DNA from: a virus
Virus record (IMG/VR): IMGVR_UViG_3300025949_000062
Coordinates: 1-35,793 of that record
Length of the DNA: 35,793 nucleotides
Strand: one strand, 5' to 3'
In this document: in pieces, positions 1 through 3,680 of the stretch
How the letters are laid out: the number at the start of each line of letters is the position of its first letter
Numbering within the stretch: the first letter of the stretch is position 1
Position numbers and translations under genes: made by a program
Notes under the pieces: model-generated
Seen by the model: the letters and a program-made list of their open reading frames with translations, nothing else
The model's database searches: none
Told to the model about the DNA's origin: nothing

Positions 1-322
1 GATCAGTTGAAAATGCGTCATACCAGGATAACTTGACAATCCCTCCCAATTCGCCCAGTTTCTCACGGTTGAATCGGGAACCGTGGGCATAACCTTCCAT
101 AACCATATGACAATTCTTATGTGCGGCTCTCTGCTCAATGAAGAAAGCGAAAAGCTTGTCACGAATTTCTTGTAATCTGCCAGCTTCTGAGCCCAGATTC
201 TTGAACTTCCATAAATAGAATTCTTCATTACCTTCACCGTCTAGCACAACAAGCCCGAAACCGCTGTAAGACTGATCGATGCCAATCCAAGCGGTTTCGG
301 GCTTTTCTAGCTTTACTTCCAT
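1..322 (-). CDS. RuvC-like Holliday junction resolvase (partial)
   Basis: The gene starts at the ATG at 322 and runs off the left edge, leaving about 107 residues. Its N terminus reads WIGIDQSYSGFGLVVLD, the first RNase H-fold strand with the catalytic Asp (D16). A second acidic strand, VMEGYAHGSR, carries E76. This matches the phage RuvC-like resolvases that trim branched DNA during recombination or packaging. It overlaps the upstream gene by 10 bases, so it is translated within the same operon. The missing C-terminal half should hold the remaining acidic residues. Family assignment is by motif only. Confidence 0.75.
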   Translation of the reverse strand, partial: MEVKLEKPETAWIGIDQSYSGFGLVVLDGEGNEEFYLWKFKNLGSEAGRLQEIRDKLFAFFIEQRAAHKNCHMVMEGYAHGSRFNREKLGELGGIVKLSWYDAFSTD

Positions 323-525
323 ATCCCGTACTGACTCTCATTCACCTTAGTGGCATCCTTACTCAGCATAAGCACTCCTACTGGCTCACCCTGTTGGATA
401 ATGTACTCGCTCATTCCCGCCTCATACTGCGCATGCGCAAAAGGCTGAATGTCGTCCTTGCTTCGGTGGTAAGAAACACGAAGATTCTTACCATCAGTCC
501 ACATTTGCTTAATGCCCCATTGCAT
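313..525 (-). CDS. hypothetical protein, 70 aa
   Basis: A 70-residue soluble protein with no motif I recognise. It contains several aromatic residues, a central stretch (YIIQQGEPVGVLMLS) that looks like a short beta hairpin, and no Cys or membrane segment. Its ATG shares one base with the stop codon of the Cys-rich gene upstream, and its 3' end overlaps the RuvC-like gene. The tight packing supports a real gene. Confidence 0.7.
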   Translation of the reverse strand: MQWGIKQMWTDGKNLRVSYHRSKDDIQPFAHAQYEAGMSEYIIQQGEPVGVLMLSKDATKVNESQYGIWK

Positions 526-719
526 TAGTAATTGTCATCCTCATCGTAGTAGTCGATCTCATCCGGATAGTGGGAGCAGTCACAGCCGCAACAGGCGCAG
601 CAACCACAAGCGAGATAATCACTCTCATAGTAATCATCCTCAATACAGCGCTCGCAGTCCTCGCCATCGCAGCAATTAAAGCAGCACTCTGTCTGCACGT
701 GGTAACAACTGTCAGCCAT
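525..719 (-). CDS. Cys-rich acidic miniprotein (64 aa, 14 Cys)
   Basis: The ATG at 719 is preferred over an in-frame start 18 bases upstream because a GGGAG ribosome-binding site lies about 7 bases before it. The 64-residue product has 14 cysteines, many as CC pairs or CxC, in two blocks (about residues 5-25 and 38-50), and ends in a very acidic Asp/Glu/Tyr tail. There is no signal peptide, so the cysteines are probably metal ligands in the cytosol rather than disulfides. It overlaps the upstream gene by 8 bases. Function unknown; a zinc- or metal-binding role is inferred. Confidence 0.75.
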   Translation of the reverse strand: MADSCYHVQTECCFNCCDGEDCERCIEDDYYESDYLACGCCACCGCDCSHYPDEIDYYDEDDNY

Positions 720-918
720 TGTTAATCTCCCTCTCAAGAAAATTTACACCGTCACGACGGATACCCGCCATTTTACCCCAGCGTCCAAGCTCTATGGCCT
801 CTTCGGCAGTAAGAGTAAGAGTGCCGGAACTACGGCCATCAATCCAGGTAATAAATACCTCATTGTTATGGTCTATATAGACCTGCAGTTTGACAAGTTC
901 AGGCTTCTTCTTAGGCAC
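712..918 (-). CDS. hypothetical protein, 68 aa (GTG start)
   Basis: Starts at a GTG with AGGAG six bases upstream. The product begins MPKKKPELVKLQVYID and looks like a small beta-alpha domain (beta hairpin around residues 10-35, helix around 37-50). No catalytic motif is visible. It sits between two Cys-rich miniprotein genes, separated by 10 bases from the one upstream and overlapping the one downstream by 8. Function unknown. Confidence 0.75.
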   Translation of the reverse strand: MPKKKPELVKLQVYIDHNNEVFITWIDGRSSGTLTLTAEEAIELGRWGKMAGIRRDGVNFLEREINNG

Positions 919-928
919 AAAAATTCTC

Positions 929-1063
929 CTAGCAGTCGCAGATGTAAGTTGTTGCCCCGCAGGAGGAACAGCCTACACAATCTTCTTCCGGATCATCTAC
1001 ACAAGGACAGTAGCAGCTATAGTAGCAGCAACCTTCTTCGGCGCAGTCATGATCATCAATCAC
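929..1063 (-). CDS. Cys-rich miniprotein (44 aa, 11 Cys, GTG start)
   Basis: A 44-residue frame opens at a GTG preceded by AAGGA about 8-9 bases away, within the gap between two larger genes. It holds 11 cysteines in CC, CxCxC and CxxCxxC arrangements plus an early His (H5), with acidic residues between. Its composition mirrors the 64-residue Cys-rich protein two genes downstream, although the sequences do not align well. A metal-binding role is likely. Its length puts it below usual gene-calling limits. Confidence 0.65.
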   Translation of the reverse strand: MIDDHDCAEEGCCYYSCYCPCVDDPEEDCVGCSSCGATTYICDC

Positions 1064-1074
1064 TCTTAATTTCC

Positions 1075-1341
1075 TTAATCGAAGTACTTTACCAGAGTCG
1101 GGAAGAATCCCAGCGGATCACCGTCGATAGTGATTCGCTTGCTGTACGTGCCGCCAGACTCTCGATAGGAGATATCGAAGTCCATATAATCCGAGTCACC
1201 GCCGTAGCCGCAGCTTTCGCAGCCACTGTAGTATGCCTTGTGGAACTCAGTCTCTACGAAATTCGCAGAGATAGCATCAATGCCGTGCTCCTCGTAGAGA
1301 TACTTAATAAGAGCCACTTCGATCTTCTCGTTAATTGTCAC
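1075..1341 (-). CDS. hypothetical protein, 88 aa (GTG start)
   Basis: Starts at a GTG with GGAG seven bases upstream, inside the last 11 bases of the SLOG gene. The N-terminal 35 residues look helical. A CESCGYGG segment near residue 42 gives a single CxxC, and the C-terminal half is beta-rich and acidic. One CxxC is not enough to claim a zinc ribbon unless the protein dimerises. Function unknown. Confidence 0.75.
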   Translation of the reverse strand: MTINEKIEVALIKYLYEEHGIDAISANFVETEFHKAYYSGCESCGYGGDSDYMDFDISYRESGGTYSKRITIDGDPLGFFPTLVKYFD

Positions 1342-1729
1342 TGTAGAACTCCAATACCCATAGATTCTTGCGCTTCGCCATGTCCACAGTCATTTGCGTT
1401 CCTCGGTTCTCCGAACCGCGTAGAAAGAAGGCTAGCATCTTGTCCGGTCTCTCGTCAACCATCGCAGCGTTCCTGATCGCAAAGCCTCTGCGGCCCTGTG
1501 AGCGGTCTGGAGGGAAGCCGCGTACATCCCAGCCAAGGAGCCTCCCGTGAAGGTCTGAGAGGCCGTCAGCGCCCTTGTAGAGACTACCTGAGATGTCCTC
1601 TCCATAAGGACAGCATCCGTGCAGCAGAGTAACTGAGGAAGCATTGAGCGTAGCCCTGTTCAGAGCCGAAAAGACCTTGAGACGAAGGTCCCAAGGCCAA
1701 TTTCGACTGCCCGTTACGAGCAGAATCAA
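1331..1729 (-). CDS. SLOG-fold (DUF2493 / YspA-like) nucleotide-binding protein
   Basis: A 132-residue protein starting at a TTG that shares TTGA with the upstream stop. It opens with ILLVTGSRNW, the glycine-rich loop of the SLOG (cpYpsA-related) Rossmann fold. It then has HGCCPYGED with KGADGLSDLHGRLLGW, GRRGFAIRNAAMVDERPD and a late RGTQMTVDMA segment, which match the family order of GaD, RN..M and GT..m. Residues around 41-52 form an insertion compared with the usual HGxAxGAD. SLOG proteins bind nucleotides or nucleotide-derived signals. In phages their role is unproven; sensing or sequestering a host signal is a possibility, not a finding. Confidence 0.8.
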   Translation of the reverse strand: MILLVTGSRNWPWDLRLKVFSALNRATLNASSVTLLHGCCPYGEDISGSLYKGADGLSDLHGRLLGWDVRGFPPDRSQGRRGFAIRNAAMVDERPDKMLAFFLRGSENRGTQMTVDMAKRKNLWVLEFYSDN

Positions 1730-3307: not shown

Positions 3308-3462
3308 TACTTTTCCTCCTGCTGGTATCGGCGAACTTCTTCTACCTTAGCACCCTCGCTAGTAGTCTGGCAAGGGCTATCATCTGATTCGTGACGGCAC
3401 GGTACAAACCGCATATGCGCGGTACATACCCTGACAGGAATGTATCCCATCTCGCCGAACAT
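3307..3462 (-). CDS. small Cys/His protein, 51 aa
   Basis: A 51-residue frame whose ATG shares one base with the stop of the zinc-ribbon gene upstream (TGATG) and whose stop shares one base with the next start (TAATG). The N-terminal half has C13/H16 and C22/H24 with C31; the C-terminal half is a charged helix. The coupled junctions on both sides are the best evidence. Another in-frame ATG lies 12 bases further in. Confidence 0.65.
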   Translation of the reverse strand: MFGEMGYIPVRVCTAHMRFVPCRHESDDSPCQTTSEGAKVEEVRRYQQEEK

Positions 3463-3680
3463 CAGATACGACGATCGTCGTTGAAGCCCTGACCACAGTC
3501 GTAGCAGTGGTACTTGGGGTGCTCATTGGTGTACGGGAGCGGAATGTGCGAGTGCTTCAGGCCGGGAATCCGAAGACGCGGACGGTACCGGTCCTGAGAC
3601 TCAAGGTGCACCTGACCACGCTTGTGGCAGCGCGGGCAGGACATGTCCGAAACGAGCTGGTCAAAACGCGGACGATCCAT
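3462..3680 (-). CDS. zinc-ribbon protein, 72 aa
   Basis: Two CxxC knuckles, SCPRCHKRG (about residues 14-22) and HCYDCGQGF (about 58-66), frame a basic beta-rich segment: a classical zinc ribbon with a long insert. An AAGGGG sequence sits 5-6 bases before the ATG. Such small ribbons in phages often bind nucleic acid or RNA polymerase, but nothing here fixes the role. Confidence 0.75.
   Translation of the reverse strand: MDRPRFDQLVSDMSCPRCHKRGQVHLESQDRYRPRLRIPGLKHSHIPLPYTNEHPKYHCYDCGQGFNDDRRI

Follow-up and report, generated by a model that had tools for sequence, protein, structure and literature searches.

The question raised by this locus is what two tiny, extremely cysteine-rich proteins do in a phage operon that leads into ruvC. 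The DNA is IMG/VR record IMGVR_UViG_3300025949_000062, a fragment of 35,793 nt (35.8 kb), and the window analyzed here covers the entire record. As the earlier note had described, it encodes a 64-residue product with 14 Cys (C64) and a 44-residue product with 11 Cys (C44); both lie on the minus strand. We tentatively read the pair, with confidence just short of even, as orphan cytosolic metal-thiolate miniproteins, metallothionein-like, of a BRock-like actinophage.

The fragment derives from an uncultivated phage of the BRock-like group of Streptomyces phages, whose genomes measure about 112 kb. It was placed there by its DNA polymerase (53-55% identity to the BRock-like phages), RuvC (about 50% identity), and ThyX, which associate it with BRock, LuckySocke, Alone3, GiJojo, and pSt2308. 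Some 10 IMG/VR contigs, mostly of 111-113 kb, group with the window phage. The group has a common gene order (WhiB, Cas4-like protein, DNA-binding protein, ThyX, small genes, DprA-like SLOG protein, small genes, and RuvC), and Pfam confirmed WhiB, ThyX, RecA, and ribonucleotide reductase in the window. The features of the interval around C64 and C44 are as follows.

1 to 322, minus strand: N-terminal part of a RuvC-like Holliday junction resolvase, cut off at the record end.
313 to 525, minus strand: 70-aa gene whose start overlaps the C64 stop (TAATG); its homologues in L006 and L002 adjoin ruvC.
525 to 719, minus strand: C64, 64 aa with 14 Cys; ATG start at 719, stop at 527-525.
712 to 918, minus strand: 68-aa gene between C44 and C64, with homologues in L005, L007, and L010.
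929 to 1063, minus strand: C44, 44 aa with 11 Cys; GTG start at 1063, stop at 931-929.
1075 to 1341, minus strand: 88-aa gene, next upstream of C44; conserved in L005, L008, L003, and L007.
1331 to 1729, minus strand: DprA-like SLOG-family protein, a conserved neighbor (Pfam YspA-related match, E=5e-5, which is below the curated cut-off).

All genes from the 88-aa gene through C44, the 68-aa gene, C64, and the 70-aa gene to ruvC run in a single direction, and the claim that C64 and C44 belong to one operon is supported by their junctions. The C64 start overlaps the upstream 68-aa gene by 8 nt, its stop is joined with the start of the 70-aa gene, and C44 is separated from both neighbors by gaps of 10-11 nt, with 10 nt between its stop and the next start. 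Purine-rich stretches resembling ribosome-binding sites (GAGAGGGAG and AAGGAA, one per ORF) lie upstream of C64 and C44. Codon usage gave weak support for C64 (P = 0.026) and was undecided for C44 (P = 0.27), so that translation of C44 rests on operon fit and ribosome site. Cys codons of the two ORFs taken together favor TGC (16:9, compared to 14:33 in the long genes; P = 0.006), and their history may therefore differ from that of the long genes. C64 and C44 are very probably real genes, for which the operon fit is the best evidence. An Rfam search gave no match, and promoter and terminator scans returned counts at, or nearly at, the level of shuffled sequence. A perfect 15-nt inverted repeat (251-265 and 290-304, 24-nt spacer) lies within the start of the ruvC-like gene, and the same operon holds more tiny ORFs with zinc-ribbon-like CxxC pairs at 1892-2068, 2222-2329, and 3462-3680 on the minus strand.

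The composition of both products is extreme. Cys makes up 22% of C64 and 25% of C44, compared to 0.93% in the long genes of the window phage (about 24- to 27-fold higher), and binomial P values against this background were 1e-15 (14 of 64 residues) and 3e-13 (11 of 44), respectively. C64 has a net charge of about -18, with 1 Arg, no Lys, and an Asp/Tyr-rich C terminus (HYPDEIDYYDEDDNY); C44 has a net charge of about -11 and neither Lys nor Arg. The two contain 4-8 Tyr. An alignment of C64 with C44 did not score above shuffles, and paralogy of the pair was rejected. A secretion signal had been reported as lacking, and we likewise found no basic N terminus, hydrophobic stretch, or membrane segment in either product; the thiols would thus be cytosolic. 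Zn(II) or Cu(I) would be the expected ligand of cytosolic proteins so rich in thiols, which favors the metal-thiolate reading: with 14 and 11 Cys in the cytosol, C64 and C44 are chemically likely to bind metal, and the metal would probably be zinc.

The earlier note had singled out a packing of CC and CxC pairs between acidic residues; at fixed composition, however, neither CC nor CxC nor acidic neighbors exceeded shuffles, and C44 has one CC only, so that packing contributes nothing past the Cys count. The sole motif above shuffles was CxxC in C64 (6, compared to 2.8 expected; P = 0.025, uncorrected).

In size and Cys content C64 and C44 fall within the range of metallothioneins (small, roughly 15-30% Cys), and they may be called metallothionein-like in composition, rather than metallothioneins. 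They share with the SmtA/BmtA-type metallothioneins and MymT a very small size, a cytosolic location, richness in Cys, and presumed metal-thiolate chemistry, but are far more acidic, with no Lys, several Tyr, and no profile or sequence match. Classical metallothioneins are Lys-rich and aromatic-poor, unlike C64 and C44 with their acidity, 0 Lys, and 4-8 Tyr. Among the bacterial proteins, SmtA binds zinc and MymT of Mycobacterium tuberculosis binds copper (PMC7387436). In the literature searched, nothing bore directly on phage metallothioneins.

At E values up to 5, neither product matched any family in Pfam or NCBIfam, metallothionein included, and HMMER bias filters may penalize Cys-dense sequences such as these. 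PDB searches with C64 and C44 returned chance matches only, and a PHROG search yielded nothing beyond chance; a match to phrog_14604 (E=0.0045) was rejected as composition bias, as this family also matched Escherichia coli, Bacillus subtilis, and two other control genomes. No homologues of C64 or C44 were found in the phage search, nor of C64, the query used, in plasmids or viral contigs; because low-complexity sequence is masked in the BLAST collections, proteins of this type could have been missed. Among bacterial genomes, including a sample of 394 from the class to which a Nakamurella genome belongs, C64 had no match and C44 had one at chance level. When viral contigs were scanned at the DNA level for the Cys pattern, the short matches, among those listed, were nearly all low-complexity repeat frames, many of them poly-Cys frames that we interpret as the antisense strand of Gln- or Ala-rich repeats. 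For C64 and C44 such an antisense artifact was rejected because both fit the operon on the same strand.

As the earlier note had suggested, the Cys pattern was looked for at the same locus in related phages. Among 13 relatives compared (nine with the whole interval read, the others scanned), the flanking genes were kept, with homologues of the 88-aa, 68-aa, SLOG, 70-aa, and RuvC genes in sister phages, but C64 and C44 were absent from all 13. The 68-aa gene showed 38-59% identity over 46-56 aa to its homologues in L005, L007, and L010. Directly upstream of this homologue, in the C44 slot, L005 and L007 encode a basic 33-aa zinc-ribbon peptide; other equivalent slots among the relatives are filled by unrelated genes. 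The zinc-ribbon peptides of the sister phages (33-49 aa; e.g., MPTPHCGTCGRRLKRVTINREGKWYCDNCKETK in L007) belong to the same operon, but they are basic, carry 4 or 5 Cys in two knuckles, and have no detectable homology to C44. C64 and C44 themselves did not fall into the zinc ribbon or knuckle class: their Cys are too dense, no profile matched, and no ribbon homologue occurs in the relatives.

In L006, the closest relative at the locus (RuvC, 65%), the position of C64 before the 70-aa homologue is occupied by a 44-residue protein that lacks Cys and is built of Asp, Glu, and Tyr, 26 of its 44 residues being Asp or Glu. The similarity of this protein to C64 lies within composition noise (13% of shuffles were equally good). 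The Cys-free protein is more acidic still, so that acidity, and not Cys, could be the property kept. C64 and C44 might then be acidic decoys, i.e., miniproteins stabilized by metal or disulfides that present a negative surface to a basic protein of host or phage, in the manner of DNA-mimic inhibitors, as would suit net charges of about -18 on 64 aa and -11 on 44 aa. We consider this unlikely, given that the similarity of C64 to the L006 protein cannot be told from noise, that no fold was predicted for C64 (AlphaFold2 on C64 alone was uninformative, pLDDT 52), and that no binding partner is known.

In BRock (gp53), GiJojo (162), LuckySocke (172), and pSt2308 (L021, L074, L073, and L072, respectively), the gene just before ruvC belongs to the phrog_889 family. 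Its C-terminal tails are rich in Cys, Asp, and Tyr in GiJojo (RCGCGCDDDDRDDYDY) and pSt2308 (RCGCGCDDDRSDYDY), short and Cys-containing in LuckySocke, and rich in Asp and Tyr but Cys-free in BRock. The tails of BRock gp53, GiJojo 162, and LuckySocke 172 resemble C64 in being Cys/Asp/Tyr- or Asp/Tyr-rich before ruvC; they differ in being attached to a conserved domain (about 150 aa) of which the window showed no trace, and homology to C64 is not demonstrable. Short Cys-rich or acidic peptides thus recur in the stretch before ruvC with sequences that are not demonstrably related, and what the comparison mainly shows is a high-turnover region of tiny Cys and acidic peptides in the BRock-like group. 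Within it, C64 and C44 are best read as fast-evolving orphans. The earlier note took poor conservation of Cys positions among homologues as its refuting condition, but no recognizable homologue turned up for such a comparison, even in relatives that keep the neighboring genes. This lack speaks against a metal function that is conserved and essential and is compatible with a lineage-specific one.

C64 and C44 could also be recent orphan ORFs of little or no function, transient products of a fast-evolving slot. Absence from 13 of 13 relatives, codon usage that speaks weakly for C64 and neither way for C44, a Cys arrangement at shuffle level, and TGC-favoring Cys codons with their possibly different history all agree with this. 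We nevertheless regard it as rather unlikely, because the remainder of the phage is very different in composition from two products with 14 and 11 Cys and hardly any basic residues, and because the gene junctions are exact and accompanied by ribosome-site-like stretches.

A notable and serious rival to the metal reading is a cysteine-responsive translational attenuator, in which the Cys-dense stretches would slow ribosomes and thereby alter expression of the coupled downstream genes, the peptide itself being secondary. Mycobacteria, themselves actinobacteria, have regulatory short ORFs that are rich in Cys and contain contiguous Cys codons (PMC9031893, PMC4633059), a precedent that C64 and C44 resemble in being Cys-dense short ORFs coupled to a downstream gene, C64 through TAATG and C44 through a stop 10 nt before the next start. 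Codons 38-48 of C64 encode Cys at 7 of 11 positions, and the tRNA genes of three relatives (30 in G001, scanned completely, and 28 in G004 and 29 in G009, both largely scanned) cover every amino acid but Cys. These tRNA-rich loci are L032/L033 (G001), L052/L056 (G004), and L068/L069 (G009). In one folding set-up the start of the 70-aa gene lay in a stem beyond expectation (P = 0.02); the signal was lost when the folded stretch was slightly altered (z = 0.66, P = 0.15), and none was seen at C44. The signal for masking of the start codon by the Cys tract thus depended on the stretch chosen. The described mycobacterial cases are leaderless and come first in their operons. C64 and C44, in contrast, are longer, strongly acidic, internal to the operon, and, as judged from sequence alone, led by Shine-Dalgarno-like sites rather than leaderless; their Cys are dispersed, with no contiguous tract near the stop, and no robust RNA signal accompanies them. 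The genes downstream have no evident link to cysteine. We therefore consider this form of control quite unlikely for C64 and C44.

The earlier note had further suggested that the pair could be bait for the redox or Fe-S machinery of the host, and had pointed to the nearby WhiB and Cas4-like proteins. The neighbors themselves were substantiated: a WhiB domain (PF02467, E=1.3e-12) is encoded about 6 kb from C64 and C44, and a Cas4-like gene stands at its usual place, labeled by synteny with annotated relatives because the protein had no Pfam match. The functional link gained no support, since WhiB and Cas4 occur in phages that lack C64 and C44, and nothing in either product indicates an Fe-S partner. 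A bait of this kind is very improbable.

We thus return to the metal-thiolate reading. In its favor are the Cys content, the cytosolic thiols, the operon fit, the ribbon-like CxxC...CxxC peptides in the operon of the relatives, and the Cys/Asp/Tyr tails before ruvC in GiJojo and pSt2308; against it stand the lack of homologues, and hence of a conserved Cys frame, the lack of a metallothionein profile match, the Lys-free, Tyr-containing acidity, the shuffle-level Cys spacing, and the acidic yet Cys-free L006 protein at the C64 position. According to this reading, C64 and C44 would probably be cotranslated with the genes leading into ruvC, and their thiols, in the reducing cytosol, would hold zinc, or some other soft metal, in thiolate clusters like those of metallothioneins. 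Metal binding would fold the peptides, which could then buffer or sequester metal during phage DNA synthesis. Both may have arisen or been acquired recently, in slots that hold other tiny zinc-ribbon or acidic peptides in sister phages. The narrower proposal, that a lytic actinophage uses this acidic, metallothionein-like pair without known relatives as a metal-sequestration device that deprives the host of zinc or thiol capacity while phage DNA replicates, we judge improbable.

If the pair binds metal, metallothionein-like metal buffers would seem to lie within the repertoire of phages, and a contest between phage and host over metal supply would become testable through two tiny genes. If ribosome slowing is instead the right explanation, cysteine-responsive control of translation would extend from mycobacteria to phages.

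Other small Cys-containing proteins were seen in the relatives. A 62-aa protein with 10 Cys is encoded right after thyX in L005 (10686-10874; also in L079 and L080); it has 95% identity in a second phage and was found in no other relative. Homology of C64 to this protein was not accepted, since composition-adjusted statistics gave nothing despite shuffle P values of 0.002 (both sequences shuffled) and 0.012 (C64 only), obtained among 21 pairs tested. Near the left end of G001 (L032, 1217-1456, minus strand) lies a gene for a protein of 79 aa with 8 Cys, whose long tail is rich in Asp and Tyr and which resembles C64 in composition. Finally, a small acidic protein with a DnaJ-type zinc motif (CxxCFGTGxDxxxDxDCxxCWGEG) is conserved across the BRock-like phages (L021, 15842-16024; L073, 34770-34952; L074, 35420-35614; L043, 2927-3097; and others).
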